From the NCBI GenBank assembly GCA_022432975.1, contig CM039512.1:35337730-35401729 (forward strand): 64,000 bases of DNA, written 5' to 3'. This stretch comes from Begonia masoniana (Eukaryota > Streptophyta > Magnoliopsida > Cucurbitales > Begoniaceae). Made by a program: the position numbers and the translations under genes. Below, piece by piece: positions 19,106 to 64,000 of this stretch (positions are counted from its first letter, which is position 1; each line of letters opens with the position of its first letter). The notes beneath the pieces were generated by a model. The model did not search any database. It was given only the letters and a program-made list of their open reading frames with translations, and was not told the DNA's origin.

Positions 19106-19770
19106 TGTAATATCCGGCTTGTACGGAATTTTAGATTTAATATATTATATTGATATAATATATTATATGTGGCATTTTTAGAAATTATGTCAAATCAAGT
19201 CGGTTTCGCAAACGGAAAGCTTTATTGCAATCCTAACGATTAATAGGAATTTTAAGAATATTACGAGAATTTTCGGAATAGTGACACAATATTCCGAGTA
19301 ACTATGTTTCTCGTAATGTAATGGATGTTTTTATTAAAATTAGTAAACGAGGTCCGAATCGCGAACGGACAGTTTTAATAAATCCCTGGCAATGAATAAA
19401 AGTTATTGGCAAAGTTACGGGAGTTTTCGCGATCCAAAAATCGTTGGACGATGACGACCGAAAGACGAAATCAATATAAAAATCAAAGGAAGGGCAAAAA
19501 AATGGTTCCTTTTGCAAATCAAATTTTAGTAAAAAGGCAATTGCCTTCTCCTTCGACAGAACACTTTCTTCTGTCTTTTTCTCCTCGCCCGCGCCAAAAG
19601 ACAGAGAGCTTCTTCTTCTGGCCGCCGGGTTCTCACGACGTCCGACCTACGTCCGACCTCCGTGATTCCTCCGTCCGTCACGGTTTCTTCCGCTCTCGCT
19701 TACCCTCGGTATGTGCTTTTAGTCCTTATGTGTTTTTTTTTACGTTTTCTTCTTTAGCTCTTCATCGTTA
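19106..19770 (+). repeat. Element A 3' LTR, truncated
   Basis: Identical to the 5' LTR by eye for about 258 bp (19106-19364 against 13090-13348), then abruptly diverged though still alignable to about 19715 (GTATGT). After about 19770 the sequence is an inverted pol fragment of another element, so roughly three quarters of this LTR are missing. Confidence 0.85.
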
Positions 19771-25034: not shown

Positions 25035-25308
25035 TGTAATACCCGGTTCTGTTAAACCATTTCTCCATTCCTTTTAAACTAATGACACAATTTTTTTTGT
25101 GGCAATATTAAATGTAGGGTTAGTGGATGACTAGGCAAGGGCATAAGGGTAATTAGAAATCTAAAGGTGGATAACGTATTTAAGGAAACTATTATCGAAG
25201 TAGCCGCCACTCTTTTATTCCATTTCCTCCCCATTCTCAGCTCCTCAGCTTAGCAGAGCGCGATAGGAGACCCCCTTCGACCTTCTCCAGCGATTTCCTC
25301 CGAACTTG

Positions 25309-25526
25309 GTGAGTTTTGCTTCTATTCTAGCTACATTGTATCTATTATTGGTGGGAGGGATGATATTGAGGTTTTGGAGAAAACAGTGAGCGAGTGTTAG
25401 TTTCGATTTAAGTTGAAATCGGGAATGCACAATGACTAGAGTTTCCAAAACAGTTTCCCTTAGATTTATAGTGGTTTGAGATGAAGGTTAGAGGAAATTT
25501 AATGTATGCTCTGTCCATGGTTATAG
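25309..25526 (+). promoter_or_regulatory. Predicted LTR intron 1 (element B, upstream LTR copy)
   Basis: CTTG/GTGAGT at 25309 to GGTTATAG ending at 25526, 218 nt. The following putative exon (25527-25580) is 54 nt, the same length as the equivalent exon in LTR H. The same sites occur in the LTRs at 28418 and 35119. Confidence 0.4.
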
Positions 25527-25580
25527 GTTCGAGTAATACCCGAAGTAGCTTGCAAACAAGTTTTCTTTCCAGGAGACCAA

Positions 25581-26063
25581 GTAAGTAAAGTACTGCCTGT
25601 GCCTTCGGGCCTACATCACAAAACAGTAGGTTTATGCATGTTTGAGTATTTTCTGTATGTTATGCATCATGTTTTTGAAAGAATACGAAAATGAATTTTC
25701 ATATATCATATGGAAAGACGAGTACAGATTGAAACGCATTAGCGGTTAAGGGAACTAATCCACCCCTTAACTGATGTAGAGGATTTATGACATTGGGAGA
25801 GTTGATCCCACTCCCAAGGGAATTGAGGGATCAGAACAGCTATTAAGGGACCTCATCCACCCCTTAACTAATGAAGAGAATGTAGACATTGGGAGAGTTG
25901 ATCCCACTCCCAAGGGAATCATGGGATCTGATCAGTAGACAAACGATGCGCAACTGAGATGAGAAAGTAGAAACTGCATAATTAGGTTTCATGTTTCAGC
26001 TTGTCATTCCATTATTGCTTTACTTACTTAGCATTAGGCTAATAGATGAGTTTTGTGATGTAG
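25581..26063 (+). promoter_or_regulatory. Predicted LTR intron 2 (element B, upstream LTR copy)
   Basis: Donor CCAA/GTAAGT at 25581 to GTGATGTAG ending at 26063, 483 nt. It is aligned in order and context with intron 2 of A, C, D and E, including a GGGCCTACATCA block after the donor. Confidence 0.4.
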
Positions 26064-26576
26064 GTGTTGAGGATACTGCAGGTGAATTTCCTGAGTGCAC
26101 AGATGATTAGAAGTGGTTGGAGGAGTACATCTATGTCTCGGCTTGGTAAACTGATGAGGCGGGTTAACTGGTGTCAGCAGTTGTTGAAGTTTAATTGATA
26201 ATGGTTTAGTCTGAGTATGTCGAGTTTTCATAACAGTAGAAATTTTAGCATTTTGAATACGTTTTGAGATTTACTGATACTAGTAATCTGTTGAGTTTTA
26301 AATGTTGATTTTTATCGGGTTTGATTAATACCATGGCTTGAGTCGTTCCTGAATGGTCTTGGGAAGCAAGTAAATACCTTTCTGTAGATAGTGTTGTGTT
26401 TCTTTTCTACCGAATGGTGTCGAGTGTTTTGTTCGTCGGATGATATAAGTGTTTTGTTTGTCGTCTAGTGCCCGGATGAGGGAGATCATCCAGCTGACGT
26501 CACTGGTGGATGTAGAGTAAAGTCGATCGGATGAAGGAGATCATCCGGCTGACGTCACCGGTAGATGAAGGACGTA

Positions 26577-26774
26577 TTTTGTCGTTTAGTGACCGGATGA
26601 CAAATCTTATGTTTTGTCGTTTAGTGACCGAATGACAAATCTTATGTTTTGTCGTTTAGTGACCGGATGACAAATCTTATGTTTTGTCGTTTAGTGACCG
26701 GAAGACAAATTTTATGTTTTGTCGTTTAGTGACCGGATGACTAATCTTACGCTTTGTCGTTTAGTGACCGGTGG
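26577..26774 (+). repeat. 35-bp tandem array in element B LTR (copy 1)
   Basis: Five units of 35 bp plus a partial sixth, each carrying GTCGTTTAGTGACCGG. The equivalent arrays at 29959-30122 and 36663-36854 have one fewer and the same number of units. It lies near the LTR 3' end. Confidence 0.9.
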
Positions 26775-27137
26775 ATGTCTTCAAATAGCCTTCCCCCTTT
26801 TCGTTGACTTTGCTCAGCGGTCGATGAAATTGACTTTGAAATCTTTAATTTTTTTACGAGTTAAACCTTTGCTTCTCAACTGATTATTTCTTAATATTCC
26901 CAACGATTATTTTAATATGGTTTGTTTAATTTACTTTTGTTTAAACGATTTCTGCTGCAAGTTTTCATGTTTTGTCCAAATTCAAGTTTTGAATTTTTAA
27001 CGAAGATTTAAATTTGGCACAGGTTTTTTTTTGTGTAATATTCAGGTTTAAGAGTGACAAACCGGGTTAAGAGAATTCGGGCGTTACAGTATGGTATCAG
27101 AGACATTCAGTTAAACCGTTCAAAAGATTTCTCATCA

Positions 27138-28417: not shown

Positions 28418-30442
28418 TGTAATACCCGGTTCTGTTAAACCATTTCTCCATTCCTTTTAAACTAATGACACAATTTTTTTTGTGACAATATTAAATGTAG
28501 GGTTAGTGGATGACTAGGCAAGGGCATAAGGGTAATTAGAAATCTAAAGGTGGATAACGTATTTAAGGAAACTATTATCGAAGTAGCCGCCACTCTTTTA
28601 TTCCATTTCCTCCCCATTCTCAGCTCCTCAGCTTAGCAGAGCGCGATAGGAGACCCCCTTCGACCTTCTCCAGCGATTTCCTCCGAACTTGGTGAGTTTT
28701 GCTTCTATTCTAGCTACATTGTATCTATTATTGGTGGGAGGGATGATATTGAGGTTTTGGAGAAAACAGTGAGCGAGTGTTAGTTTCGATTTAAGTTGAA
28801 ATCGGGAATGCACAATGACTAGAGTTTCCAAAACAGTTTCCCTTAGATTTATAGTGGTTTGAGATGAAGGTTAGAGGAAATTTAATGTATGCTCTGTCCA
28901 TGGTTATAGGTTCGAGTAATACCCGAAGTAGCTTGCAAACAAGTTTTCTTTCCAGGAGACCAAGTAAGTAAAGTACTGCCTGTGCCTTCGGGCCTACATC
29001 ACAAAACAGTAGGTTTATGCATGTTTGAGTATTTTCTGTATGTTATGCATCATGTTTTTGAAAGAATACGAAAATGAATTTTCATATATCATATGGAAAG
29101 ACGAGTACAGATTGAAACGCATTAGCGTTAAGGGAACTAATCCACCCCTTAACTGATGTAGAGGATTTATGACATTGGGAGAGTTGATCCCACTCCCAAG
29201 GGAATTGAGGGATCAGAACAGCTATTAAGGGACCTCATCCACCCCTTAACTAATGAAGAGGATGTAGACATTGGGAGAGTTGATCCCACTCCCAAGGGAA
29301 TCATGGGATCTGATCAGTAGACAAACGATGCGCAACTGAGATGAGAAAGTAGAAACTGCATAATTAGGTTTCATGTTTCAGCTTGTCATTCCATTATTGC
29401 TTTACTTACTTAGCATTAGGCTAATAGATGAGTTTTGTGATGTAGGTGTTGAGGATACTGCAGGTGAATTTCCTGAGTGCACAGATGATTAGAAGTGGTT
29501 GGAAGAGTACATCCATGTCTCGGCTTGGTAAACTGATGAGGCGGGTTAACTGGTGTCAGCAGTTGTTGAAGTTTAGTTGATAATGGTTTAGTCTGAGTAT
29601 GTCGAGTTTTCATAACAGTAGAAATTTAGCATTTTGAATACGTTTTGAGATTTACTGATACTAGTAATCTGTTGAGTATTAAATGTTGATTTTTATCGGG
29701 TTTGATTAATACCATGGCTTGAGTCGTTCCTGAATGGTCTTGGGGAAGCAAGTAAATTCCTTTCTGTAGATAGTGTTGTGTTTCTTTTCTACCGAATGGT
29801 GTCGAGTGTTTTGTTCGTCGGATGATATAAGTGTTTTGTTTGTCGTCTAGTGCCCGGATGAGGGAGATCATCCGGCTGACGTCACTGGTGGATGTAGAGT
29901 AAAGTCGATCGGATGAAGGAGATCATCCGGCTGACGTCACCGGTAGATGAAGGACGTATTTTGTCGTTTAGTGACCGGATGACAAATCTTATGTTTTGTC
30001 GTTTAGTGACCGGATGACAAATCTTATGTTTTGTCGTTTAGTGACCGGAAGACAAATTTTATGTTTTGTCGTTTAGTGACCGGATGACTAATCTTACGCT
30101 TTGTCGTTTAGTGACCGGTGGATGTCTTCAAATAGCCTTCCCCCTTTTCGTTGACTTTGCTCAGCGGTCGATGAAATTGACTTTTGAAATCTTAAATTTT
30201 TTTTTTATTTACGAGTTAAACCTTTGCTTCTCAACTGATTATTTCTTAATATTCCCAACGATTATTTTAATATGGTTTGTTTAGTTAACTTTTGTTTAAA
30301 CGATTTCCGCTGCAAGTTTTCATGTTTTGTCCAAATTCAAGTTTTGAATTTTTAACGAAGTTTTAAATTTGGCCCAAGTTTTTTTTTGTAATATTCGGGT
30401 TTAAGAGTGACAAACCGGGTTAAGAGAATTCGGGGCGTTACA
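28418..30442 (+). repeat. Element B 5' LTR
   Basis: 2025 bp, TG to CA. Contains a duplicated block of about 95 bp near 29130-29315 (TTGGGAG...CTCCCAA hairpins), two TGACGTCA palindromes (about 29878 and 29934) next to CCGGATGA...TCATCCGG hairpins, and a 35-bp tandem array (29959-30122). Splice-like signals correspond to those of the upstream LTR copy. Confidence 0.95.
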
Positions 30443-30525: not shown

Positions 30526-30587
30526 GTAAGTGTTTATGTTAGTCTTAGTAATTAGATGTATATGAGAGTAGTTAACCTTTTTACAAG
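30526..30587 (+). promoter_or_regulatory. Predicted leader intron before gag (element B)
   Basis: CAACT/GTAAGT at 30526 to CTTTTTACAAG ending at 30587, 62 nt, 11 nt before the gag ATG. Same position and size class as in A, C, D and E. Confidence 0.4.
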
Positions 30588-35118: not shown

Positions 35119-37179
35119 TGTAATACCTGGTTCTGTTAAACCATTTCTCCATTCCTTTTAAACTAATGACACAATTTTTTTTTATGGCAATATTAAATGT
35201 AGAGTTAGTGGATGACTAGGCAAGGGCATAAGGGTAATTAGAAATCTAAAGGTGGATAACGTATTTAAGGAAACTATTATCGAAGTAGCCGCCACTGTTT
35301 TATTCCATTTCCTCCCCATTCTCAGCTCCTCAGCTTAGCAGAGCGCGATAGGAGACCCCCTTCGACCTTCTCCAGCGATTTCCTCCGAACTTGGTGAGTT
35401 TTGCTTCTATTCTAGCTACATTGTATCTATTATTGGTGGGAGGGATGATATTGAGGTTTTGGAGAAAACAGTGAGCGAGTGTTAGTTTCGATTTAAGTTG
35501 AAATCGGGAATGCACAATGACTAGAGTTTCCAAAACAGTTTCCCTTAGATTTATAGTGGTTTGAGATGAAGGTTAGAGGAAATTTAATGTATGCTCTGTC
35601 CATGGTTATAGGTTCGAGTAATACCCGAAGTAGCTTGCAAACAAGTTTTCTTTCCAGGAGATCAAGTAAGTAAAGTACTGCCTGTGCCTTCGGGCCTACA
35701 TCACAAAACAGTAGGTTTATGCATGTTTGAGTATTTTCTGTATGTTATGCATCATGTTTTTGAAAGAATACGAAAATGAATTTTCATATATCATATGGAA
35801 AGACGAGTACAGATTGAAACGCATTAGCAGTTAAGGGAACTAATCCACCCCTTAACTGATGTAGAGGATTTATGACATTGGGAGAGTTGATCCCACTCTC
35901 AAGGGAATTGAGGGATCAGAACAGCTATTAAGGGACCTCATCCACCCCTTAACTAATGAAGAGGATGTAGACATTGGGAGAGTTGATCCCACTCCCAAGG
36001 GAATCATGGGATCTGATCAGTAGACAAACGATGCGCAACTGAGATGAGAAAGTAGAAACTGCATAATTAGGTTTCATGTTTCAGCTTGTCATTCCATTAT
36101 TGCTTTACTTACTTAGCATTAGGCTAATAGATGAGTTTTGTGATGTAGGTGTTGAGGATACTGCAGGTGAATTTCCTGAGTGCACAGATGATTAGAAGTG
36201 GTTGGAAGAGTACATCCATGTCTCGGCTTGGTAAACTGATGAGGCGGGTTAACTGGTGTCAGCAGTTGTTGAAGTTTAGTTGATAATGGTTTAGTCTGAG
36301 TATGTCGAGTTTTCATAACAGTAGAAATTTTAGCATTTTGAATACGTTTTGAGATTTACTGATACTAGTAATCTGTTGAGTATTAAATGTTGATTTTTAT
36401 CGGGTTTGATTAATACCATGGCTTGAGTCGTTCCTGAATTGTCTTGGGGAAGCAAGTAAATTCCTTTCTGTAGATAGTGTTGTGTTTCTTTTCTACCGAA
36501 TGATGTCGAGTGTTTTGTTCGTCGGATGATATAAGTGTTTTGTTTGTCGTCTAGTGCCCGGATGAGGGAGATCATCCGGCTGACGTCACTGGTGGATGTA
36601 GAGTAAAGTCGATCGGATGAAGGAGATCATCCGGCTGACGTCACCGGTAGATGAAGGACGTATTTTGTCGTTTAGTGACCGGATGACAAATCTTATGTTT
36701 TGTCGTTTAGTGACCGGAGCAAATCTTAGTTTGTCGTTTAGTGACCGGATGACAAATCTTATGTTTTGTCGTTTAGTGACCGGAAGACAAATTTTATCTT
36801 TTGTCGTTTAGTGACCGGATGACTAATCTTACGCTTTGTCGTTTAGTGACCGGTGGATGTCTTCAAATAGCCTTCCCCCTTTTCGTTGACTTTGCTCCGC
36901 GGTCGATGAAATTGACTTTTGAAATCTTTAAATTTTTTTTTTTATTTACGAGTTAAACCTTTGCTTCTCAACTGATTATTTCTTAATATTCCCAACGATT
37001 ATTTTAATATGGTTTGTTTAGTTAACTTTTGTTTAAACGATTTCCGCTGCAAGTTTTCATGTTTTGTCCAAATTCAAGTTTTGAATTTTTAACGAAGTTT
37101 TAAATTTGGCCCAAGTTTTTTTTTGTAATATTCGGGTTTAAGAGTGACAAACCGGGTTAAGAGAATTAGGGGCGTTACA
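35119..37179 (+). repeat. Element B 3' LTR
   Basis: 2061 bp, TGTAATACCT to GGCGTTACA. It differs from the 5' LTR by scattered substitutions and by array copy number (36663-36854, with one internally deleted unit). Confidence 0.95.
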
Positions 37180-37453: not shown

Positions 37454-39984
37454 TGTAACGACCCTAGTTGGAGTCGCCACGTAATTCATAACTTAACCTC
37501 TTTAATTCATATTTACCCTGATCTCTTTAGATCTTTCACCCTTCGACCACTTTACACTAAGGTCCCCTTTGTATTATTTTTTTTATCTTTCCTCAACAGA
37601 ACTTAAGGACTTTAACATAACAGACAGAAACTAGATTCATCGAACTTGACTTCCTCTTAAAACTAACAACATATTCATTCACAGAGTCAAGCGACCATAC
37701 GCAGTCATCGGTTCTATAACAAATTCGGGCAGGAAAGATATGCCCCCAGATTATTCTATATTATTCTGCTCGGGTTTGCATGCATCGGCTAATGGAGTGT
37801 ACCTCTTTCGATTTGTCACGTGTACTCTGCATGACTCAATTATCGTTGCCCAATAGAAGACATCTTCCGGCGGGCACGTGCATCTCTCGTGACTCATTAA
37901 ACATCACTCGGTCACTAAACGACAACAACATCTACGTCATCCGGTAATTGAAATACACTACATCTACCGATCAGTAGACGACAAAATGATTCGTACATCG
38001 ACCGACATTAGAAATACACTACATCGCCCGATCACTAGACGACAAAACACACTTACATCATCCGGTATTTGAAATACAAAACACCTACCGATCACTAGAC
38101 GACAAAACGATTCGTACATCGCCTGACATTAGAAATACACTACATCGCCTGATCACTAGACGACAAAATAACACTTACATCATCCGGTATTTGAAATACA
38201 CAACATCTATCGATAGACATGTGCAATCCACATGTTCTTTTAAGACATCTTCCGATAGAGAACATCTATCGGTGGATGCAAATTCCTAACATCTTCCGAT
38301 AGAGTACAGCTATTAGTGGACATAAATATACACAGACTTCTAACTTCATTGACTCATCACTCTTATAAATGAAAATCAGAGACTCATCCAGAATTCTTGT
38401 AGAGGAAGATTTAGTTAAAATAACTCGTTATATATCCTTATAAACATTCTAAGACTCAGTAATTAAACCAGACAATTTCAAAAGCTCGATGTTTTAAAAT
38501 AATCTCATCCTACTTAGAATTCCATATTCATAATCGTCACTAAAATCATAAGAGCATTAACCAGGGGATCTTGTTCGCCATCCAGCCACAGAATTGCTCC
38601 CTGAACACCTTCCAGCAACCCAAACTTAGATGTCTTCATTAACTTTAGAATCCTCACCTGATATTTCGTCACCTACATCATAAGGTTTAAATTATAAGCC
38701 TAATGCTTAGTAAGGAATGCAATACTAACATGTATACGTGAATGCATAGTTGCAAGAAAATCATGATCATGTTCGTTTCATGCTCTTTTCTTGTTCTTAT
38801 TCGTGTTCTTGTTCATCACTTTCATCATATGGATTAAGGGAGGATTTGTGCCGTAAAGGGGGGAAGACAGTGCAAGTGTACATAGTCCCTTTCGGGCCGT
38901 ATTCATGGTCCTTCTCTTTGGACAGTGACATACGTAAAACCGCCCCCAACCCTCACTTAATCCGGTTGCATAAGTTTCATATTCATTCTCATATCTTGTT
39001 CATGGGGGAAAACATGCTCATAAATCATTTTCATATGCTTGAGAAGTAAATCATGATGCATGACATGAATGTTCTTAAATCATCAGACTATGGAAAATAT
39101 CATACTAGACAGTTGACTTCATAGACTCTATCAGAACATCACATAATATAGTTCTCAAACATTCGTAAATCATCCAAGTACAAACCATCTTACTAACTTA
39201 AAACAAACATCAAACACATAACTAATTTAGTACCCTTAAGATGTAGGGCCCTAATGGCCAGAAATCTTAATACATTCACTTACCTGGCTTCCTTAGCAAA
39301 TTCGTGCACTACACTTCAAACTTCTTCACCTGATATCATTTCACATTTTAGAGTTAAAATAGATCCTAAATATTCTGAAATCAAAGCTAGAAAAGTCCTA
39401 ACTAAATGTCATCCTAGAATCTGTATTCCTGAGTCCTTTCAGCCGAGCACCTTGTGTGTGGACTAAGTTTCCAAAATCTAAAATAGCCTAATTCAACTTA
39501 ACCACTAGTTCCAGTCGGTTATCTTAAAGTCCAGATTCGAATCAAGAATGCTATTACCAAACACAGATTATAAATGTTCCTATTATTCGGCCATTAAAGA
39601 ATCTTGAAACAATGGGTTCTAGCTGAAAACAGAGTTCCAAATAATTACTCGGCAACTACATTGTCTAAATCTTACCTTGAATATAGGTTATCGGAGTGGA
39701 GGCTGGAGGAATCGATCACCAAAGAGGGAGTCGCCGGCAGAGAAAGAGCTCTGGAAGCACGGGAATCGCCGAGAGAGAATGTCGGCTACAGTGGGGTTTA
39801 AGTGAGGTTTAAGGTTTTCATTTTTTTTTTATACTAAATAAAATCCCTCTTAATTACAGTTCTGCCACCACACAAATAGAAACCAAATAAGCTTAGGCAT
39901 TAAAATTTAAATTAAAGATTAACAATAAAGGTGACAGTTAATTCCGTTAAGAAAATCACCTGGCTGAAAATGTCGGATGTTACA
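37454..39984 (-). mobile_element. Solo LTR (minus strand), target duplication ATACA
   Basis: 2531 bp. Minus-strand sequence starts TGTAACATCC at 39984 and ends GGGTCGTTACA at 37454. ATACA flanks both sides (37449-37453 and 39985-39989). It is related to the element B LTR family: its minus strand contains CGTTTAGTGACCGA-type phrases and CCGGATGA. It keeps splice-like signals (CCAG/GTAAGT, plus-strand ACTTAC at 39278-39283; 46-nt putative exon 39284-39329; GATGTAG/GTGACG near 38678). The 99-aa and 70-aa plus-strand frames inside it are chance. Confidence 0.95.
37790..38330 (-). repeat. Tandem array in the solo LTR
   Basis: Alternating units with CACTAGACGACAAAA and CATCATCCGGTATTTG phrases give a higher-order period of roughly 115 bp, and each unit carries CCGATCA or CCGGT motifs. 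It is in the same relative LTR position as the B array, with related core words. Confidence 0.8.
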
Positions 39985-40142: not shown

Positions 40143-41435
40143 TGTAACACCTTGGTTGTTTAATTTTTTGAATTTTAAGCTATATAGCGTTTTAATTCGT
40201 AAAAATATTAAATTAAGTCTGTTTTACAAACGCGAAGTTTTGTTAGAACCCTAAGAATAAGTTGGAATATTTGGAGGAATAAGGAAATTTTAAAGAAACC
40301 AAATCGATAGGTTAATTAACGAATTTAAGCAAAGAATTGAGAGAAGGGCATTTAAGTAAATTGCTAAGTCCAAAATTTAATTAAAACCTAAAATCTCCCC
40401 CCCCCCCCCCCCCCTTCTCTCATTTCTCTCTAGCTACGTGAAGCTCTCCCCCAGCAAAAATTTCCCCTCCCACGCCGTTTTCTCCTCGGCCGATAAACGC
40501 TCCATTTTCGGCAATTTTCTTCTAATTTTTCTTCCCCAAATCTACGTTCTAGGTAAGCTCCAAGCTCCAGGCACATTTAGTTGTTGTTTTTAGGGTTGTA
40601 TTTCAGTTAGGGTTTGTTGAATTAGGGTTGAGAATTTTAGGTTTAGTTAGAAATCGATAGTGTTGCGTTATTAATGCCCGTTGATGACGTATTTATGATT
40701 ATTGGTGATAGTTAGGTTGAGAAATTTGTTATTGAATTGAATTTGGTGGTTGTTGGAGGTTTAATAGCCATTAATGGAGATTGTATAATTTATGAACGTG
40801 AATTGCTCGATGAAATGCTCGAATGAAGTGAATTTGAGTTTTAGGAAAAATTTCCTTAGTTAAGTGTTCCATTAGTTTTTGGAATTCGGTCGTTTAGAGT
40901 CGATTCTAATGACAAATTGTGAATTGCCTTAGGTAACCCAAGCACAAAGAACGGTGCTCGAATAGCTAGGACGCCAGGTAAGTGAGTGTTAGGCTTCCGG
41001 CCCCTAAGGCCTTACATTGTATCGATGTTAGGATTGAAGAGTTTCGATGATGTTTTCATGATTGTTGGGTTTTAACGAGTCGGGTAGCCTAGGACATTAT
41101 CTACTAGCGGTGTATTAGGTTGTTTATGAGTTAAGTGTGTTTTTACACGTTTATGAACTGTCGTTAATGATATGTTATACGTAGTTCCCTCATGCATCAT
41201 GTTTTCTAAAAAGGGCATACGAAATGTTTTATGAACACAGTTTTATGAAATGTGAAGTAAAGAATGAAACGAAATAATGATCTCACGTGATATGTTATGG
41301 TTCTCACCGGGCAAGTCGTGGTTCTCACAGGGCAAGGACGTGGTCTACTGAGTAGTCAATTGTGTTAACGTAAAAAAAATGAAATGAAACGAACATGTTT
41401 TATAAAAATCATGCATTTATGTAAATGTTATGTTT
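40143..41435 (+). repeat. LTR F, 5' half
   Basis: Begins TGTAACACCT and carries the shared architecture: a poly-C/CT leader (about 40397-40435), TCTAG/GTAAGC donor-like site (40553), TTGCCTTAG acceptor (ends 40932), a 45-nt putative exon (40933-40977), and GCCAG/GTAAGT (40978). It is interrupted at 41435 by element D. Its 3' part is not in the window. It resembles LTR I and the solo LTR at 9902. Confidence 0.85.
40397..40415 (+). repeat. Poly-C run in LTR F
   Basis: About 19 consecutive C bases at the start of the CT-rich leader. Length is likely unstable and may be misassembled. Confidence 0.9.
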
Positions 41436-41806
41436 TGTAACACCCGATTCTTTACGGGATTTTGTAAATATATAAATAATGGCATTTTTGTACTTATGTC
41501 AAATTAGGTCGGTTTTACGAAAAGAAAGCGTTATTACGATCCTAATAATTAATATGGATTTTATGAAAATTTTGGAAATTTTAGGAGTTGTAACGCTAAT
41601 TTTATGGAAATTACGTTTATCGTAATATAAAGGTCGTTATGGTAAAAATAGTAAACGAGTTCCGATTTGTGAACGGAAAGTTTTATTTGAACCCTAGTAA
41701 TAAGTTGGATTAATTGGTGAAATAAGAAATTTTGGAGAAACCGAACCGTGAGCTAAATAACGAAACGAAGGACGAAACAAATAGAAAATCAAAGGAAGGG
41801 CAAAAT
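41436..41806 (+). repeat. Element D 5' LTR, part 1
   Basis: Begins TGTAACACCC and stops at AAAAT, the target site of element C. It continues at 49961-49965 (duplicated AAAAT), with ATGGTAATTTGCCAGG-type sequence following, as in the equivalent position of other LTRs. Confidence 0.9.
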
Positions 41807-42351
41807 TGTAACACCCAGCTTTTCTGGATATTATTATTTTATTATATAATGACATTTTCGTAAATATGTCAAATCAAGTCCGTTTCACGAAAAGAAAACG
41901 TTATTAGAATCCTAACGATTAATTGGAGGTTTAGGCAAATTACGAGAATTTTCGGAATAATAACGTTATATTTCGAGTAATTACATTTCTCGTAATATAA
42001 TGGACGATTTAGTAAAAATAGTAAACGAGGTCCGAATTGAGAACGGACGGTTTTAATAAATCCCAAATAATAAGTTGGACTTATTGGTGAAATAAGGAGA
42101 TTTGGTGAAACCGAATAGCTAGTTAATTAACGAAACAAACGACGAAACGAATATAAAAATAATGCAAGGGCAAAACAGTAAATTGCCATATCAAAATTAT
42201 AAAATAACAATAATCTTCTTTCTTCCTCATTTCTTCCCTGCTGTGCGAGAAAACCAGAGAGCGAAGCTCTCTCTGCCGTCGACGATTCCTTCGACTTCCG
42301 ACCTCCGATCGTCTCGATTCTTCGCGATTTCTTCCCCAATCCCGATCCTAG

Positions 42352-42730
42352 GTACGATTCTAAGGTTTTAGGAAAGTTTATTTTGACTTTTACGGAGTTA
42401 AACAATTAGGTTTTCGTTTAGGGTTTCCGTTAAAAATGCGATTTAAGGTTCGAAATTGATAGGTTTGCCGTGATTAAGTATATATTGAACGTATTGAATG
42501 TTATTGGACGTAGTTAGATTGATTTGTGAGAATGTTAAAGTTTTAGGATTTTCGAGTTTGTGGAAAATGCTCGTTAATTGAGGTTTTGAAATACATAATG
42601 TGTAATGTTCGCTAAAATGCATTAGTAAATCAAATTGGAGCTTTAAGGATTGTCCTTAGTCAAGGTTTCGTTGAATTGGACATTTAACGGTTTAAGCTCG
42701 TTTTAACGACAATTTGGTGAAATTGCTTAG
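42352..42730 (+). promoter_or_regulatory. Predicted LTR intron 1 (element C)
   Basis: CCTAG/GTACGA at 42352 to AATTGCTTAG ending at 42730, 379 nt. The equivalents in A, D, E and F are 375-380 nt. Confidence 0.5.
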
Positions 42731-42775
42731 GTAAACAACGCTCGTGGACGGAGCTTGAGCTGCAACGGACACGAG

Positions 42776-43318
42776 GTAAGTTCTCGTGATCTTCTCTGGC
42801 CGATTGGCCTACACCGTACGTCGAAGTCGTCTCGAGAAGTTTTGGTGATGCGTTTGTTTAAATTTGTTTTTGGTTGGGTAGTTAGGTTGGTCGTGTATAG
42901 ACTATGTTTGTTTATCGTCTTGATGGAACACATGCTGGTTGTTTATTTTACGCATTTGACTGCTCATGCATCACGTCTGATAAAGCATATGTTTAACAGA
43001 ACGAACGAAATGAATCTACGTAATCTGTTATCTGGTCACGGCGAAGTGGTTTAGACCTCGGTGACATTCTGTCTGCGACCTAATTAAAATGTAAAATGAA
43101 CCAACGAAATCTACGTAATCTGTATCTGGTCACGACGAGGTGGTTTAGACCTCAGTGACAATCTGTCTGCGACCTAATGAATCTGAATCTGTTATCTGCA
43201 TGAATCTGAATCTGAATCTGTTATCTGCATGTTTTATGAATGACATACGCATCTGCACGCATCTGCATTTACTAGAGCTTACTGAGATTTTTATCTCATA
43301 GATGTCTATATGGTGTAG
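42776..43318 (+). promoter_or_regulatory. Predicted LTR intron 2 (element C)
   Basis: CACGAG/GTAAGT at 42776 to TATGGTGTAG ending at 43318, 543 nt, with CTTACTGAG branch-point-like sequence about 40 nt before the acceptor. The donor sits in the loop of a CACGAG...CTCGTG hairpin. The putative exon before it (42731-42775) is 45 nt. Confidence 0.5.
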
Positions 43319-43836
43319 GTAACATTGAGGCAGGTGAGGATGAGATCCCTCCACCTGAGGAATGAGGCAATTGACGGAGGACGGCCTGCAGTGGTGTGTT
43401 GGCGCAGTCAATGCTTGACCTGACCCGTGGGGAAGTATGTATAGGTTTTGGGGTTTTTGGGATGTTTTGGGCTGATGGTTGTATAGACATTTTAGGATGC
43501 TTGGTTCTGTTAGTTGATAGGTTTTAAACGTTTTAGAAAATCTATTTTGTAAACTGTTTTTGTAAAGTTTTTATGAATTGCTGGATGATTTTAATAGGAG
43601 GAAATTGTACAGTTTTAAACATATCCACGCAGTTTATTTTCAGGGAACTGTACTTCGTTTTAAATACTTTTTGAGTCGTTCTTTGAATGATTAGTGGATT
43701 GAAAGTTGTATGTGTGTGTAGTGATAATACATTGAGGAGTTGTTATGAAAATGAAAGAAAATGGTGAAGTTTTAAGTGTGTTTTGCAGGGAAATTGAAAG
43801 GAGAAGGAAGAAAGAAGAAAGAGGAGGGGGAGGGGC

Positions 43837-44086
43837 GAGCTCTCTTGAAAACGATTCCAGAGAGGTTGCCGAACGATCGCCATGGAGGGCGATCGTTCGC
43901 CCCTCATCTGGTCGCGCTCTGGAAAAAATTCCAGAGCGCTTGCCGAATGATCGCTGGAGAAAGCGATCAGTAGGCAAAAATGGGCGATCGCGTAGGGCGA
44001 TCGATCGCCGGTTTTGGGCGATCGATCGCCCCTTGTGTTTTGATGTTCGGCGATCGATCGCAAGTTTTGGGCCACCGATCGCCACT
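43837..44086 (+). repeat. Palindromic array in element C 5' LTR
   Basis: GAGCTCTCTTGGA-like arms with ATTCCAGAGAGG, then CGCTCTGGAA...TTCCAGAGCG, then repeated GGCGATCGATCGCC-type palindromes. The counterpart at 49468-49718 in the 3' LTR differs by point changes. Frames read through it on either strand are not genes. Confidence 0.9.
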
Positions 44087-44333
44087 GGCTTTTGATTGTC
44101 AAAAAGCCGATTCTGCCCTCCCATGCTGGGCTGACGTTTTAAAGGATTTAAATGTTTGTTTTAATTGTTTATTTAAATTGTTTTAAGATTTTTTTTAAAC
44201 GAGCTTCGATTCCAATTCCGATTTCGATTTCGATTGAGGTTCCGCCTTACGTACAGTTAAAGTTAAAGGTGTAAAAAAAAATATATATAGTTACGGGAAA
44301 TTAAGGGTACAGTATTAGGGTTGTGACAATTTA

Positions 44334-44345
44334 TGGTATCAGAGC
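44334..44345 (+). promoter_or_regulatory. Element C primer-binding site
   Basis: TGGTATCAGAGC, 5 bp after the LTR end, complementary to initiator tRNA-Met. Confidence 0.9.
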
Positions 44346-44416: not shown

Positions 44417-44481
44417 GTAAGTATGTTTATAGCTTTATTTGATTTCTATTTTCTTAGAGTTGTGTGTTTTAACCTATATAG
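44417..44481 (+). promoter_or_regulatory. Predicted leader intron before gag (element C)
   Basis: CAACT/GTAAGT at 44417 to AACCTATATAG ending at 44481, 65 nt, 13 nt before the gag ATG. Confidence 0.4.
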
Positions 44482-47438: not shown

Positions 47439-49960
47439 TGTAACACCCAGCTTTTCTGGATATTATTATTTTATTATATAATGGCATTTTTGTAAATATG
47501 TCAAATCAAGTTCGTTTCACGAAAAGAAAATGTTATTAGAATCCTAACGATTAATTGGAGGTTTAGGAAAATTACGAGAATTTTTGGAATAATAACGTTA
47601 TATTTCTAGTAATTACATTTCTCGTAATATAATGGACGATTTAGTAAAAATAGTAAACGAGGTCCGAATTAAGAACGGACGGTTTTAATAAATCCCAAAT
47701 AATAAGTTGGACTTATTGGTGAAATAAAGAGATTTGGTGAAACCGAATAGCTAGTTAATTAACGAAACAAACGACGAAACGAATATAAAAATAATGCAAG
47801 GGAAAAACAGTAAATTGCCAAATCAAAATTATAAAATAACAATAATCTTCTTTCTTCCTCATTTCTTCTCTGCTACGCGAGAAAACCAGAGAGCGAAGCT
47901 CTCTCTGCCGTCGACGATTCCTTCGACTTTCGACCTCCGATTCGTCCTCCGATCGTCTCGATTCTTCGCCATTTCTTCCCCAATCCCAATCCTAGGTACG
48001 ATTCTAAGGTTTTAGGAAAGTTTATTTCGACTTTTACGGAGTTAAACAATTAGGTTTTCGTTTAGGGTTTCCGTTAAAAATGCGATTTAAAGTTCGAAAT
48101 TGATAGGTTTGCCGTGATTAAGTATATATTGAACGTATTGATTGTTATTGGACGTAGTTTGATTGATTTGTGAGAATGTTAAAGTTTTAGGATTTTCGAG
48201 TTTGTGGAAAATGCTCGTTAATTGAGGTTTTGAAATACAGAATGTGTAATGTTCGTTAAAATGCGTTAGTAAATCAAATTAGAGCTTTAAGGAATGTCCT
48301 TATTCAAGGTTTCGTTGAATTGGACATTTAACGGTTTAAGCTCATTTTAATGACAATTTGGTGAAATTGCTTAGGTAAACAACGCTCGTGGACGGAGCTT
48401 GAGCTGCAACGGACACGAGGTAAGTTCTCGTGATCTTCTCTGGCCGATTGGCCTACACCGTACGTCGAAGTCGTCTCGAGAAGTTTTGGTGATGCGTTTG
48501 TTTAAATTTGTTTTTTGTTAGGTAGTTAGGTTGGTCGTTTATAGACTATGTTTGTTTATCGTCTTGATGGTACACATGCTGGTTGTTTACTTTACGCATT
48601 TGACTGCTCATGCATCACGTCTGTTAAAGCATATGTTTAAGAGAACGAACGAAATGAATCTACGTAATCTGTTATCTGGTCACGGCGAGGTGGTTTAGAC
48701 CTCGGTGACATTCTGTCTGCGACCTAATTAAAATGTAAAATGAACCAACGAAATCTGTATCTGGTCACGACGAGGTGGTTTAGACCTCGGTGACAATTTG
48801 TCTGCGACCTAATGAATCTGAATCTGTTATCTGCATGAATCTGAATCTGTTATCTGCATGTTTTATGAATGACATACGCATCTGCATGCATCTGCATTTA
48901 CTAGAGCTTACTGAGATTTTTATCTCATAGATGTCTGTATGGTGTAGGTGACATTTGAGGCAGGTGAGGATGAGATCCCTCCACCTGAGGAATGAGGCAG
49001 TTGACGGAGGATGGCCTGCGGTGGTGTGCTGGCGCAGTCAATGCTTGACCTGACCCGTGGGGAAGTATGTATAGGTTTTGGGGTTTTTGGGATGTTTTGG
49101 GCTGATGGTTGTATAGACATTTTAAGATGCTTGGTTCTGTTAGTTGATAGGTTTTAAACGTTTTAGAAAATCTATTTTGTAAACTATTTTTGTAAAGTTT
49201 TTATGAATTGCTGGATGATTTTAATAGGAGGAAATTGTACAGTTTTAAACATATCCACGCTGTTCATTTTCAGGGAACTGTACTTCGTTTTAAATACTTT
49301 TTGAATCGGTCTTTGAATGATTAGTGGAGTGAAAGTTGTATGTGTGTGTAGTGATAATACATTGAGGAGTTGTTATGAAAATGAAAGAAAAATGGTGAAG
49401 TTTTAAGTGTGTTTTGCAGGGAAATTGAAAGGAGAAGGAAGAAAGAAGAAAGAGGAGAGGGAGGGGCGAGCTCTCTGGAAAACGATTCCAGAGAGGTTGC
49501 CGAACGATCGCCATGGAGGGCGATCGTTCGCCCCTCATCTGGTCGCGCTCTGGAAGAAATTCCAGAGCGCTTGCCGAATGATCGCTGGAGAAGGCGATCA
49601 GAAGGCAAAAATGGGTGATCGCGTAGGGCGATCGATCGTCGGTTTTTGGTGATCGATCGCCCCTCGTATTTTGATGTTCGGCGATCGATCGCAAGTTTTG
49701 GGCGGCCGATCGCCACTGGCTTTTGATTGTCAAAAAGCCTATTCTGCCCTCCCATGCTGGGCTGACGTTTTAAAGGATTTAAATGTTTGTTTTAATTGTT
49801 TATTTAAATTGTTTTAAGATTTGTTTTAAACGAGTTTCGATTCCAATTCCGATTTCGATTTCGATTGAGGTTCCGCCTTATGTACAGTTAAAGTTAAAGG
49901 TGTAAAAAAAATATATATATAGTTACGAGAAATTAAGGGTACAATATTAGGGTTGTGACA
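47439..49960 (+). repeat. Element C 3' LTR
   Basis: 2522 bp, the same length as the 5' LTR and nearly identical by eye, with compensating small indels (for example one fewer CTACGTAATCTG unit near 48750 and an added CCGATTCGTC near 47938). Confidence 0.97.
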
Positions 49961-50574
49961 AAAATGGTAATTTGCCAGGTCAATTTTTAATAAAATCACA
50001 CTTCTCTCTTTTCCTTCCCCATTTTCTCTCTACCTGCGTGCTTCTCCCTGCGATTTTCCATTTCTCCCTCACGGCGTTCTCCTCTTGCAACGGCATTTGC
50101 TCTCCTATCAACCTTCGTTCTTCACGTCTTCTTCTCCAACCCCGACCCTAGGTACGATTCTAAGGTTTTAGGAAGGTTTATTTTGATTTTTACGCAGTTT
50201 AAATGATTAGGGTTTCGTTTAGGGTTTTGCAAAAAATGTGATTTAGGGTTTGAAATCGATAGATTTACCGTATGTGTGAATATAATGGACGTGTTGAGTG
50301 TTATTGGACGGAGTTAACCTATTTAGGACAAATGTTAGGGATTTATGAATTTTTGGGTTTTTGAAAAAATTCGTTAATGGCGGTTTCAAGGTATCGAGCG
50401 TTAATTTGTTATTAAAATGCCTCGATTAGTCAAGTTAGAATTTAAGAAATTTCCTTAGTTAAGGATTTCGTTAATTTGGACGTTTAAGGTTTAAGCACGT
50501 TTTAACGAGAATATTGTGAATTGCCTTAGGTAAAAAACGCTCGTGGACGGAGCTTGAAGTTCTACGCGCACGAG

Positions 50575-51156
50575 GTAAATTCTTGTGACTTACTATGGCC
50601 GATTGGCCTACACCATAAGCCGAGTTTGTTGTTGAGGATACGTTGGTGTTTAATTGTTTATGCCGGTCATTGTTTAGTCTAATTGTCTTGGTTGGGTAGT
50701 TTAGGTTCGGTTGCTTTATAGGTTGAGTGTTTTGATGGTATTCGTAGTGTTTTGATGGTGTGCTCTTTATGTATGTTTATACTGAACTAATCATGCATCA
50801 TGGTTTAAACAAACGTCATGAAAACAAATTTACGCACGGATTTCACAAAAAGAACATGCATGTAAAGGCAAGTAAAGTATCACATTAAACAACCATGACA
50901 TGGGGTTATCGGGGATGAGGTTCAGACCTGGCGTTCCGTGGTGAGCGAGTTTTTCTCCCTTCAGATGGTGTGGACTGTCTAACTACTGGATGTGCCCTAT
51001 CTATCTGTCGAGCGTTTCCCATAACAATAGACTGACACTTACTGATATATGAAATGACATGGACGGTTTTCATAGCATTGAGCATACACGATCATGCATA
51101 ACCATTTACGTAGAATTTACTGAGATTTTTATCTCATAGGTGTCTTTATGGTGTAG
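50575..51156 (+). promoter_or_regulatory. Predicted LTR intron 2 (element D)
   Basis: CACGAG/GTAAAT at 50575 to TATGGTGTAG ending at 51156, 582 nt. The donor has drifted from GTAAGT to GTAAAT and the CACGAG hairpin partner reads CTTGTG, consistent with decay of an old element. Confidence 0.4.
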
Positions 51157-51700
51157 GTGATCTTGACATAGGTGAGGATGAGATCCCTCCACCCGAGGAA
51201 TGACGCAGCTGAAGGAGGATGGCCTGTGAGAGTGCGCTGGGCAGTCGATGCTCCTTTTGACCTGTGGGGGAAGTAAGTGTATGTTTTGGGAACACGATAG
51301 TTAGATAAAATTGTATAGTTGAACATATTAGGATGCTTGGATCTGGTTAGCTGATAGAATGATGTATAGATGTTTTGGTAAACTAATTTATAAAATGTTT
51401 GTTAAGGCTTTTATCTAAGTTTTATAGAACGGCTTGGTGATTTTAACAGGGGGAAACGTTTAGTTTTTAAATGGATCCACGCGGTTTGTTTTTATGAAAT
51501 CGGGTTATGTTTTAAATGTGTTTTGAGTCGTTTATTTTGGGTGATTGGCGAAGCGTGAAATGGGTGAGGTTTGAGCGATTGTATGTTACATGATTATGGA
51601 GTGCTTTATGTTTAAGTTTTAATGTGTATATGTGGTGAGGAATATGTGTAGGGAAGAAGGATGAAGAAAAACAAGGGAAGAAAGAAGAAAAGGGAGAGGC

Positions 51701-51921
51701 GAGCTCCCTGGAAATTGAAATTCCAGGGAGGTTGCCGATCGATTGCCTAAGGAGGTGATCGATCTGCAACAAAGGTCGCTGCTCTCTGGAGAATCCAGAG
51801 AGCATGGCGATCGATAGCGAGGCGATCGATCGCCGGTGTGAGGGACGAATGATCGCCACTCCATTTTTCGTGGCTGGCGATCGATCGCTTGCAAAAGGGG
51901 CGATCGATCGCCCCTGCATTT
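51701..51921 (+). repeat. Palindromic array in element D LTR
   Basis: GAGCTCCCTGGAA with TTCCAGGGAGG, GCTCTCTGGAGAATCCAGAGAGC-type hairpin, and GCGATCGATCGCC repeats. It is shorter and more diverged than in C. Confidence 0.85.
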
Positions 51922-52154
51922 TCAGGACAATGTCCCTTCTGCTCTCCACCGATTATTTAATTGTTTTAAATTATTGTTTTAAGTTTTAATTAAATGTTTT
52001 ATGTTTCTTTTAAATAGTTTTAAAATAGTTACGAACGAATTTTAACGATTTAGTCTCTGATTTAAATTCCGCTCAAAAGTTACGAAGTTATAAGGATAAA
52101 AAATAAAAATAAAATGGGAAAATAAGGGTACAGTGTTAGGGTCACTACAACTTA

Positions 52155-54935: not shown

Positions 54936-55310
54936 GTATGTCTCTATAGTTTTAGAACGTTTATTTCGAGTTTTACGGAGTTATACGTTTAGGGTTTTCG
55001 TTAGGTTTTTGATTAAAAACGCGAATTAGGGTTCGTAATTAATAGGTTAGCTGTGATTAAGTATATATTGCACGTATTCGACGTTATTGGACGAAGTTAA
55101 ATCAATTCGTGAAAATGTTAAAATTAGGGATTTTCGAGATTTTAGGAAGAACTCGTAAATTGGAATTCGAGGTGCCGAACGTGAGTTGTCGAATAAATAG
55201 CCCAGTGAATGGGATTAGAACTTTAGAAAGTCTCCTTAGTTAAGATTTTGTAAATTTGGACGATCAATAGCTTAAATTAGTTTTAACGTCGAAATTGTGT
55301 TTTGCTTCAG
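54936..55310 (+). promoter_or_regulatory. Predicted LTR intron 1 (element E)
   Basis: TCTAG/GTATGT at 54936 to TGTTTTGCTTCAG ending at 55310, 375 nt. The acceptor has a good pyrimidine tract. The next putative exon (55311-55355) is 45 nt. Confidence 0.55.
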
Positions 55311-55355: not shown

Positions 55356-55934
55356 GTAAGTTCTCGTGATTCTTCTCTGGCCGATTGGCCTACACCGTAC
55401 GTCGAATGTCGTCTCGAGGAGTTTTGGAGAGGCGTTAGTTTAAATTGTACTTGGTTTGGGTAGTTAGGTTATAGGAGTTTATAGTTTACGCTTTACAGTC
55501 TGGATGGTACATGTTATTGTTTGTTTACTTTAAAATATTGAACTGTTCACGCATCACTTGTTTTAAAGAAAAGCATGAAAATGAACTTCCGCACAGAGTT
55601 TTAAAGATAACGTAAAGCATAGCATTGGCCGAAAGGCATACAGGCCTTCGGGCATACAGGCCTTCGGGCATACAGTTTACAGGTCACGCGAGGTGGGGCT
55701 CAGGCACGGCTGTACGGGTTGTAAGCGTGTACCCCCCTCTTCTAGCCAGAAAGAGTAGTCCGCCCGCTGGATGAGCTCTCTCCGGTTAGAAGGTATAGGA
55801 TCTCGGTGACACCTATAGTGCATGGCATAGTAAGATAAAAATAAAGCATGGTTTAATGAACTCATAGCACAGCATGCATCGCATTTACGTAGAGTTTACT
55901 GGGATTTTATCTCATAGTGGGTTGTATGGTGTAG
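55356..55934 (+). promoter_or_regulatory. Predicted LTR intron 2 (element E)
   Basis: CACGAG/GTAAGT at 55356 to TATGGTGTAG ending at 55934, 579 nt. The donor lies in a CACGAG...CTCGTG hairpin loop, as in element C. Confidence 0.55.
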
Positions 55935-61595: not shown

Positions 61596-64000
61596 TGTAA
61601 TACCCAGTTGTACGGACTCGCATATTATATTATTATTGTATTATTGGATGACATTTTTGTAAATATGTCAAATCAAGTCTGTTTTACGAAAAGAAAGCGT
61701 CATCATGATCCTAATGATTAATAGGAATTTTAAGAAAATTATGGGAATTTTTGGAGACTAAACGCTATATTCCGAGTAATTACATTTTTCATAATATAAA
61801 GGATGTTTTAATAAAAATAGTAAACGAGGTCCGAATTACGAACGGACGGTTTCAATGGAACCCAAATAATAAGTTGGAGTTACTGGTGAAATAAGGAGAT
61901 TTGGTGAACCCGAATAGTTGGACGATTACTGAACCGTAGGACGAAACTAAAATAAAAACTAAAGGAGGGTAAAAAGGTAATTCGTCAAGTTAATATTTTT
62001 TATAAAAATCAACTTTTCTTCAATCGCAGAACACTTCTGCGATTTCAATTCTGAGTTTTCCAGAGAGCTTCTACTTCGCGAAACCCTCCTTGCCCGCGAC
62101 AAAAACCTTCCGATCCGACCTCCGTTCGTTCTGTTTTCTTCACGTTTTATCCTCCAATCAACGTTCTAGGTATGTCTCTATAGTTTTAGAACGTTTATTT
62201 CGAGTTTTACGGAGTTATACGTTTAGGGTTTTTGTTAGGTTTTCGATTAAAAACGCGAATTAGGGTTCGTAATTAATAGGTTAGCCGTGATTAAGTATAT
62301 ATTGCACGTATTCGACGTTATTGGACAAAGTTAAATCAATTCGTGAAAATGTTAAAATTAGGGATTTTCGAGATTTTAGGAATAACTCGTAAGTTGGAAT
62401 TCGAGGTGCCGAACGTGAGTTGCTCGAATAAATAGCCCAGTGAATGGGATTAGAACTTTAGAAAGTCTCCTTAGTTAAGATTTTGTAAATTTGGACGATC
62501 AATAGCTTAAATTAGTTTTAACGTCGAAATTGTGTTTTGCTTCAGACAAACAACGCTCGTGGACGGAGTTTGAGCTGCTTTGGACACGAGGTAAGTTCTC
62601 GTGATTCTTCTCTAGCCGATTGGCCTACACCGTACGTCGAATGTTGTCTCGAGGAGTTTTGGAGAGGCGTTAGTTTAAATTGTACTTGGTTTGGGTAGTT
62701 AGGTTAGAGGAGTTTATAGTTTACGCATTACAGTCTTGATGGTACATGTTATTGTTTGTTTACTTTAAAATATTGAACTGTTCACGCATCACATGTTTTA
62801 AAGAAAAGCATGAAAATGAACTTCCGCACAGAGTTTTAAAGATAACGTAAAGCATAGCATTGGCCGAAAGGCATACAGGCCTTCGGGCATACAGGCCTTC
62901 GGGCATACAGTTTACAGGTCACGCGAGGTGGGGCTCAGGCACGGCTGTACGTGTTGTAAGCGTGTACCCCCCTCTTCTAGCTGGAAAGAGTAGTCCGCCC
63001 ACTAGATGAGCTCTCTTCGGTTAGAAGGTATAGGATCTCGGTGACACCTATAGTGCATGGCATAGTAAGATAAAAATAAAGCATGGTTTAATGAACTCAT
63101 AGCACAGCATGCATCACATTTACGTAGAGCTTACTGGGATTTTATCTCATAGTGTGTTGTATGGTGTAGGTGACATAGACTTCGAGGTACCAGGTGAGGA
63201 CGATGTCCCTCCACCTGAGGCATGATTCAGTTGACGGAGGATGGCTGCGGAGGTGTGCTGGCGCAGTCGAGGCTCACCTGACCCGTGGGGATAGTATGTA
63301 TAGATTTTGGGATGTTTTGGCTAGATAATTGTGTAGACGTTATAGGATGTTTGGTTCTGGTAGTTGATAGGTTTACATTTGAATGTTTTGTGTAAATTGT
63401 TTATAAAACAGTATTTAAACGTTATAGAAATGTTTTGGAAATGTTGTAGGTTGGATACGGATAAGCTCGATTTTTAGAGCTATCCATGCAGTTGGATTTC
63501 GCAAAGTCCGCTGTGGGTTGATTGAGTTTAAAATACGTTATAAACTGATACTTTGTTAGGAGTAGGTTGAATTGTGTTAGGTTGAATTGTGTTGGTTTGC
63601 TCTCTGGAATCCAGAGAGCACTTGTGAAAATAAAGGAAACAGAGAAGAAGAGAAAACAGAAGAGAAAACAGAAGGGATCGCGTGGTGGTCGCTGCATAGA
63701 GTGCAGCGATCGATCTCTGCAGTAATGCAGAGATCGATCGCTGGCTTGCTAGCATATGCAGCGATCGATCTCTGCAGCAATGCAGAGATCGATCGCTGCT
63801 TGCTAGCATATGCAGCGATCGATCTCTGCATTGCTGCAGAGATTGATCGCTGCAGCATGCAGTGCATGCAGCGATCAGTCGTTGCATGCTGCAGCGATCA
63901 GTCGCTGCATGCTGCAGCGACTGGGCGCGGCCTCCTTTCCTCGGGCAGAATGTCAATTCTGCCCTCCCCTTTTATTTTAATCGAAATTAGTTTTAAATAA
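61596..64000 (+). repeat. Element E 3' LTR (truncated by window end)
   Basis: Nearly identical to 54362-56800. Differences include a 12-bp duplication (AGAGAAAACAGA, near 63655) and one additional array unit. The last 140 bp or so are outside the window. Confidence 0.95.
63688..63922 (+). repeat. Hairpin array in element E 3' LTR
   Basis: Same order as 56441-56652, with an extra GCAGCGATCAGTCG-TTGCATGCT unit, so about 23 bp longer. Some stems are more perfect than in the 5' copy (for example CGATCGATCGCTG against CAATCGCTG). Confidence 0.9.

Follow-up and report, generated by a model that had tools for sequence, protein, structure and literature searches.

Two probable spliceosomal introns inside the long terminal repeats of a group of Begonia Ty3/gypsy retrotransposons

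Are the ordered splice-site-like signals that recur within the long terminal repeats (LTRs) of certain Begonia masoniana retrotransposons genuine introns, and if so, what might removing or retaining them mean for the element? The question arises in a 64,000-nucleotide stretch of contig CM039512.1 (assembly GCA_022432975.1, positions 35,337,730 to 35,401,729, forward strand), here called the window, where a first-pass annotation had described two donor–acceptor pairs within single LTRs and suggested that spliced RNA serves as mRNA and unspliced RNA as genome. A review states that plant LTR retrotransposons are, as a rule, free of introns.

Plant Ty3/gypsy elements lie nested within one another in the window, and gag, aspartic protease, reverse transcriptase (RT) and integrase domains were found in them. 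LTRs start with TGTAAYACCC, and the primer-binding site (PBS), TGGTATCAGAGC, is of what we take to be the initiator-Met tRNA type. Profile hits in the window proteins comprise gag, CCHC, RVP_2, RVT_1, integrase H2C2 and a Tf2-1-like SH3 domain; the order gag–protease–RT–integrase is that of Ty3/gypsy, with rve scoring below the cut-off and the RNase H model absent from the hits. The chromodomain (PF00385) gave no hit in the three window proteins scanned and is present in 8 of the best 120 of 7,979 related proteins; among these 120, all those with an organism name come from plants, the top identity being 64%. By their LTR ends and the integrase C-terminus, which we take to be traits of the Tekay/Del clade, the window elements appear to belong to the Tekay/Del-like chromovirus group of Ty3/gypsy. 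The nesting is as follows: element C lies inside the 5′ LTR of E (E parts at 41436–41806 and 49962–52150), and A (54362) is inserted in the internal region of E. Three B LTRs are found at 25035–27088, 28418–30442 and 35119–37179; the extra copy, upstream of a near-complete B element, follows a 3.38 kb period, for which unequal recombination is a possible origin, and 35-bp-spaced tandem repeats occur within the B LTR at 26554–26890 and 29936–30237.

Sites and spacings were re-measured in 13 window LTRs, and the ordered layout was borne out: a leader, a GTA donor, 375–380 nt, an AG, a 45-nt block, a GTAAGT donor, 543–594 nt and TGTAG, held in place while the flanking sequence is strongly diverged between LTR families. 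GT...AG ends, as expected of U2-type spliceosomal introns, are present wherever a site was located, the sole exceptions being in the decayed copy G. The block, or exon 2, measures 45 nt in C5, C3, A5, A3, D, E, G and H. The divergent groups B and J show the same order with other spacing, as had been noted for B and for a solo LTR at 37454 (J, minus strand): intron 1, block and intron 2 measure 218/54/483 nt in B1 and 218/54/482 nt in B2, intron 1 of B3 is 218 nt long (its second donor was missed by the exact-string search), and the 46-nt block of J, on the minus strand, separates introns of 346 and 611 nt. In B and J, which are strongly diverged, the eye recognizes no more than the order, the motifs at donors and acceptors and, past donor 2, a stretch resembling GGCC..GGCCTACA. 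Some details of the first-pass annotation have to be adjusted. The range of 543–594 nt for the second intron fits C5, A, D and E but not C3 with its 528 nt, and the second donor, generally GTAAGT, is GTAAAT in E; an LTR called F, described as cut before the second acceptor, is so cut and probably corresponds to our H, and nothing resembling a 'spliced leader' in the trans-splicing sense was seen. A further LTR at 19106–19763 stops just past its donor. The 5′ LTR of element C (C5) has a 3′ partner at 47439–49961 (C3) that is 96% identical to it by self-BLAST. The features are as follows, coordinates resting on site measurement where no other basis is given:

41807–44329, plus strand: 5′ LTR of element C (C5), by self-BLAST; starts with TGTAACACCC and is followed by the PBS at 44334
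42221–42351, plus: exon 1 of C5, CT-rich leader, by sequence and composition; its 5′ end is set by a TATA-like stretch near 42190 and is thus inferred
42352–42730, plus: predicted intron 1 of C5, 379 nt, CTAG/GTACG ... GCTTAG/; exactly absent in intron-less relatives
42731–42775, plus: exon 2 of C5, 45 nt, by sequence
42776–43318, plus: predicted intron 2 of C5, 543 nt, GAG/GTAAGT ... TATGGTGTAG/; both introns absent in loci L071/L072
43319–43470, plus: beginning of exon 3 of C5; in the spliced frame its opening 15 codons contain no stop
44334–44345, plus: PBS of element C (TGGTATCAGAGC), by sequence
47996–48374, plus: predicted intron 1 of C3 (3′ LTR of C), 379 nt
48420–48947, plus: predicted intron 2 of C3 (3′ LTR of C), 528 nt
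54936–55310, plus: predicted intron 1 of A5, 375 nt
55356–55934, plus: predicted intron 2 of A5, 579 nt
62170–62545, plus: predicted intron 1 of A3, 376 nt
62591–63169, plus: predicted intron 2 of A3, 579 nt
13685–14061, plus: predicted intron 1 of D5, 377 nt
14107–14700, plus: predicted intron 2 of D5, 594 nt
50152–50529, plus: predicted intron 1 of E, 378 nt, in an LTR split by the insertion of C
50575–51156, plus: predicted intron 2 of E, 582 nt
40553–40932, plus: predicted intron 1 of H, 380 nt, in an LTR cut before acceptor 2
28692–28909, plus: predicted intron 1 of B2, a member of a divergent group, 218 nt; relatives without it exist
28964–29445, plus: predicted intron 2 of B2, 482 nt
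39330–39675, minus: predicted intron 1 of J, a solo LTR, 346 nt
38673–39283, minus: predicted intron 2 of J, 611 nt
11492–11843, minus: predicted intron 1 of G, a decayed solo LTR, 352 nt; acceptor GG instead of AG
10910–11446, minus: predicted intron 2 of G, decayed, 537 nt; acceptor AC instead of AG

Conservation of the sites gives a mixed answer. The string AGGTAAGT occurs 10 times (2.2 expected) and TRTGRTGTAGGTG, with at most one mismatch, 12 times (0.19 expected), both counts being inflated by related copies. Between C5 and the LTRs A3, D5, E, G and H both donor GTs are kept in five of five comparisons, but so are 10 of 88 GTs, these two included; acceptors 1 and 2 are kept in 4/5 and 3/4, which 19 of 54 and 22 of 54 AGs also reach. 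In 26 of 30 fetched close copies, a sample picked by similarity near acceptor 2, the four splice sites are kept 24/26, 24/26, 24/26 and 26/26 times, many other sites being equal to them, against background means of 0.79 (GT) and 0.76 (AG). In the alignment check that had been proposed, i.e. whether GT and AG positions are more conserved than their neighbours, the donors were kept between families (5/5), and the acceptors did no better than background in the five-LTR comparison and the close copies alike; site conservation alone would neither prove nor refute splicing. Base composition follows the plant pattern of AT-rich introns and GC-richer exons clearly for intron 1 and more weakly for intron 2 (GC contents in the window LTRs: leader 46–62%, intron 1 30–37%, block 43–62%, intron 2 36–44%).

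Genuine introns whose spliced RNA is now and then reverse transcribed would leave behind LTRs from which an intron is precisely missing, and such LTRs were sought in the window's own 795-Mb assembly. An initial junction pattern was too short, its 7,326 matches being, by inspection, mostly intron-bearing acceptors; among them, locus L035 has leader and 45-nt block fused at the predicted base. A longer leader-to-block pattern gave 33 matches, with none for the reversed-pattern control, and by inspection these are 31 exact joins, carrying 18 distinct 14-nt leader ends, and two intron-bearing acceptors. Twenty of the 33 were fetched; all 20 are exact and keep donor 2 (GTAAGT or GTAAGC), and the acceptor-2 motif lies within 900 nt in 13 of them. 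The rest comprise six joins fetched as three pairs and seven that are matched strings only (five joins, two intron-bearing). The longer pattern has the cut point built in, so a second search was run in which the position of the join could vary by about 15 nt (5–35 nt allowed, an exact join being 19). Its 13 matches, with none in the control, consist of nine joins, three intron-bearing copies and one chance hit, and all nine joins are exact, with no near misses. Since intron 1 can be aligned between families (58–73%), the intron-less state is a loss. The 20 fetched loci form 18 clusters at 85% identity, and a tree that also includes 51 intron-bearing LTRs requires no fewer than 14 changes, a count that recombination between LTRs could alter; the tree is built on exon 2 and downstream sequence. 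A search for relatives in viral_contigs gave 14 pattern matches, none of them confirmed.

Five LTR pairs are without intron 1 in both repeats, which is the pattern predicted by reverse transcription of spliced RNA. The pairs are labelled C3, C5, C6, C8 and C13 (not to be confused with the window LTRs C3 and C5), and their repeats are 97–98% (C3), 99.3% (C5), 99.6% over 257 nt (C6), 94.9% (C8, i.e. L058/L065) and 98.1% (C13) identical. Genome pairs C3 and C8 have a PBS after one LTR and related pol before the other, and C3 is flanked by the target site duplication ATAGT; genome pairs C5, C6 and C13 are taken as such from strand, a spacing of 5.6–7.0 kb and 98–99.6% identity. Mixed elements with the intron in one LTR only were not seen, the partners of single LTRs having been sought unsystematically. 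When 11 single intron-less loci were followed downstream, the LTR end was recognized in six and not in five; no PBS follows in the six, which are thus solo LTRs. Five of these six have a perfect 5-bp target duplication and the sixth, L060, matches in four of five letters, and perfect duplications are present in six of the seven intron-less insertions tested.

Group B gives the same picture with its own sequences. A pattern built from B's exons 1 and 2 hit 15 joins, with one to three mismatches elsewhere in the pattern, and its control had no match; in all eight that were fetched the join is at the predicted base and donor 2 is present, with acceptor 2 lying within the fetched stretch in five. 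The B joins (G000 C1, C5, C8, C12 and C13; L084–L091) form two sublineages with a common join, from which it follows that an intron-1-less lineage has probably multiplied and that intron 1 is dispensable there.

For intron 2 the yield was far smaller. An initial pattern was too loose (733 + 717 matches, 433 + 426 in the reversed control), and the two matches without mismatch, L071 and L072, were followed. They lie 7.1 kb apart and are 89.7% identical, the upstream part of L072 being truncated; in them the leader runs directly into a block of about 44 nt and this into exon 3, each join falling where the cuts were predicted, so that both introns are gone, and the second junction stands at GAG/GTGAT as predicted in both LTRs. 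A PBS was not found in L075, adjoining the both-intron-less LTR. A search of C/A/E-type LTRs for exon 2 near exon 3 had one match, an imprecise deletion, and no exact join. Precise removal is thus seen in genomic copies for both introns, for intron 2 in one LTR pair only. Loss of intron 2 is far rarer than loss of intron 1; judged by this one pair, intron 2 appears to be removable, but RNA spliced there seems rarely to return to the genome. A join of exon 2 to gag had no match in genome copies, and because RNA spliced in this way would lack the PBS, no retrotransposed copy of it is expected; the acceptors found for the LTR donors lie in the LTR itself.

Could exact joins arise without any splicing, by deletion at the DNA level or by template jumps between short direct repeats such as TAGGTA? 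Donor and acceptor do share TAG/GTA in C/E-type LTRs, and the imprecise deletion in intron 2 is of this kind. However, 10 of the 31 joins are of the AC type, and the cut points in window A and D share only AG, which makes such deletion unlikely, with the limit that the AC-type relative L040 has CTAG at its acceptor and hence four shared nucleotides; the B sites share three. As the open-join search met exact joins exclusively, both LTRs are affected in five pairs, and L071/L072 are without both predicted introns, we regard deletion as very improbable. Scarcely more credible is the idea that only intron 1 is real, the TTACTGAG...TATGGTGTAG/GTGA block being some other RNA signal (a hairpin, a packaging or a 3′-end element) and L071/L072 the product of a chance deletion. 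It would accommodate the loss of intron 2 in a single pair, the AG missing from acceptor 2 in G, the 7 of 20 intron-1-less loci in which the acceptor-2 motif was not found, and a hairpin present in several families, with a folding z of about −2.1 in C and D and nothing standing out in A, E and B. Yet the L071/L072 junction is the predicted one in both LTRs, together with exact loss of intron 1, and the families compared, as well as B and J, retain donor 2. That the LTRs of this Ty3/gypsy group carry two genuine spliceosomal introns within their R region, as far as its limits can be drawn from sequence, we hold to be highly probable (roughly 0.88), the support for intron 1 being better than that for intron 2. 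The intron-less genomic copies thereby support splicing inside the LTR at the sites originally proposed.

What the introns do is a separate matter. They might be a passive relic, e.g. a captured host-gene leader that is spliced without any role for the element; the multiplication of the intron-1-less B-type lineage, where intron 1 is not essential, and the merely moderate conservation of the sites would fit, but the order is kept in LTRs with strongly diverged flanks, and intron 2 is hardly ever lost whereas intron 1 often is, so that we rate a relic as unlikely, if the least so of the alternatives. Somewhat less likely still is a coding purpose, with the spliced LTR RNA serving to make a short peptide from exon 3 and perhaps exon 2. 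The start of exon 3 (43319–43365 and homologues) reads, in the spliced frame, as an acidic, proline-rich tail, GD..GEDE.PPPE, followed by a stop. Exon-3 starts were compared in 65 distinct sequences, of which roughly half are close copies of the C type. Sixty of them have a next AG/GTGA motif, and in 59 it lies a multiple of three nucleotides from acceptor 2; 62 of the 65 reach their first stop no earlier than codon 15, two stop at codon 3–4 and one has no stop. In this frame pN/pS is 0.37, against 1.33 and 1.21 in the others (43 loci, 25 distinct, the pairs not being independent). Against a peptide as the purpose stand exon 1, which has no coding signal in that frame (pN/pS 1.10–1.36), exon 2, which has little (0.61 vs 0.69 and 1.07) and contains stops in J, and the failure to find a conserved ATG or other start codon upstream of the exon 3 frame. 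Three further candidates were rejected. Splicing from Gag into the 3′ LTR as the source of the frame would need a donor at the Gag/protease border, and the glycine codon there is GGC, GGT and GGA in A, E and D, i.e. no donor is conserved; an open reading frame through the retained introns is not conserved either; and depletion of ATG in the leader, as a sign of translation, is no stronger than composition predicts (24 in exons 1 + 2 vs 31.4 ± 4.8, a count not exceeded in 20 of 300 shuffles, and 17 vs 14.3 in exon 1, for 44 distinct of 61 loci). Viewed over 130 nt, the leader is ATG-free in 12 of the 13 window LTRs.

Two small signals may be recorded here:

43279–43298, plus: TTACTGAGATTTTTATCTCA, a branch-site-like TTAC plus a short hairpin before acceptor 2, by sequence; function putative
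44417–44481, plus: 65-nt stretch from GTAAGT to TATAG, located past the PBS and ahead of the gag ATG; conserved, possibly a small intron

The inverted repeat before acceptor 2 is seen at 43283–43298, 29410–29424 and 38695–38709 (minus), and by eye both of its arms differ from group to group (TGAGAT/ATCTCA, TTAGC/GCTAA, TAAGC/GCTTA). A GTAAGT about 80 nt past the start of the PBS, with an acceptor-like AG before the gag ATG, occurs in A, C, D, E and B (30526–30587), and the stretch is kept in L076 and L077, the two intron-1-less elements in which a PBS was found.

How could two introns in an LTR operate? The transcription start, the polyadenylation site and hence the extent of R are inferred. 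If transcription starts below the TATA-like box, every LTR-driven RNA would begin with exon 1, intron 1, exon 2, intron 2 and exon 3, and the same two-intron stretch would recur in the 3′ LTR. Of the two, intron 1 would be taken out by the spliceosome, and intron 2 at least on occasion, as the intron-less genomic copies indicate. In reverse transcription of the retroviral kind, R is copied at the RNA's 5′ end and then transferred, so a spliced template gives an insertion with both LTRs intron-less. The majority of templates would retain both introns, and RNA spliced at intron 2 is probably kept from the replication pool, given how rarely that intron is lost: intron 2 may hold something needed for packaging, its splicing may commit the RNA to translation, or its strong donor may mostly be joined to an acceptor beyond the PBS. 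The proposed division into spliced mRNA and unspliced genome has to be narrowed in this respect, since intron-1-spliced RNA has repeatedly been reverse transcribed (at least 14 changes, and a multiplied B lineage), and what survives is that only intron-2-spliced RNA appears nearly excluded from re-entry (one LTR pair; C/A/E search). A sorting role of the LTR introns is plausible. In its full form, with intron 1 freely removed and retention of intron 2 marking genome RNA, spliced RNA going to translation and unspliced RNA to reverse transcription, a cis-signal for replication inside an LTR intron and exon 3 coding for a small LTR-peptide tail, it is a tentative proposal that we would not yet bet on.

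In foamy viruses the LTR donor is used with acceptors that lie in the internal part of the genome. Their major splice donor precedes the polyadenylation signal within the LTR (PMC3694450), i.e. a functional donor in the transcribed part and in both LTRs, as the Begonia donors are predicted to be; the Begonia LTRs differ in holding two donor–acceptor pairs, and thus two complete introns in one LTR. The foamy-virus donor may be regarded as the nearest functional parallel, with no claim of descent. Among plant elements, Ogre (Tat lineage) is a Ty3/gypsy element with an intron in its coding region and likewise partially spliced RNA (PMC6317226), and the sugarbeet element SCHULTE has, according to its abstract, 'unexpected introns' in its ORFs. 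BARE1 (PMC3735527) and EVADE (PMC12786077) resemble the present case in that alternative splicing, giving a short GAG RNA, separates RNA forms of a plant LTR retrotransposon, and BARE1 also in its U-rich intron and GC-richer exons (PMC3735527); they differ as Ty1/copia elements whose intron lies in coding sequence and whose spliced RNA yields a GAG-only product (PMC3735527, PMC12786077). The predicted introns are not of the internal Ogre, BARE or EVADE type, within or between coding regions, but lie in the LTR, upstream of PBS and gag. Retrosat-2 is placed in the Tekay/Del clade, whose elements are widespread in seed plants (PMC6317226); its TATA box precedes nt 244, where an R of about 2 kb starts (PMC3485330), which is the layout proposed for the window LTRs. 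In the text that deals with Retrosat2 and the one that covers 2,432 Del elements (PMC3485330, PMC4029996) the word 'intron' does not occur, and 'splic' occurs in one reference title. In the open-licence literature as far as it is searchable, where silence is no proof of absence, we recognized no published case of introns in plant LTRs, and two complete introns inside a plant LTR are apparently unreported there.

If the introns do lie in R, one and the same sequence would be kept in the RNA that is copied and removed from the RNA that is translated, and a spliced template would rewrite both LTRs. The genome would then record each failure to keep the two RNAs apart, and the division between translation and replication could be counted from DNA alone. 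In practical terms, gene models and RNA-seq reads over such LTRs may be misread as host genes or chimaeras.
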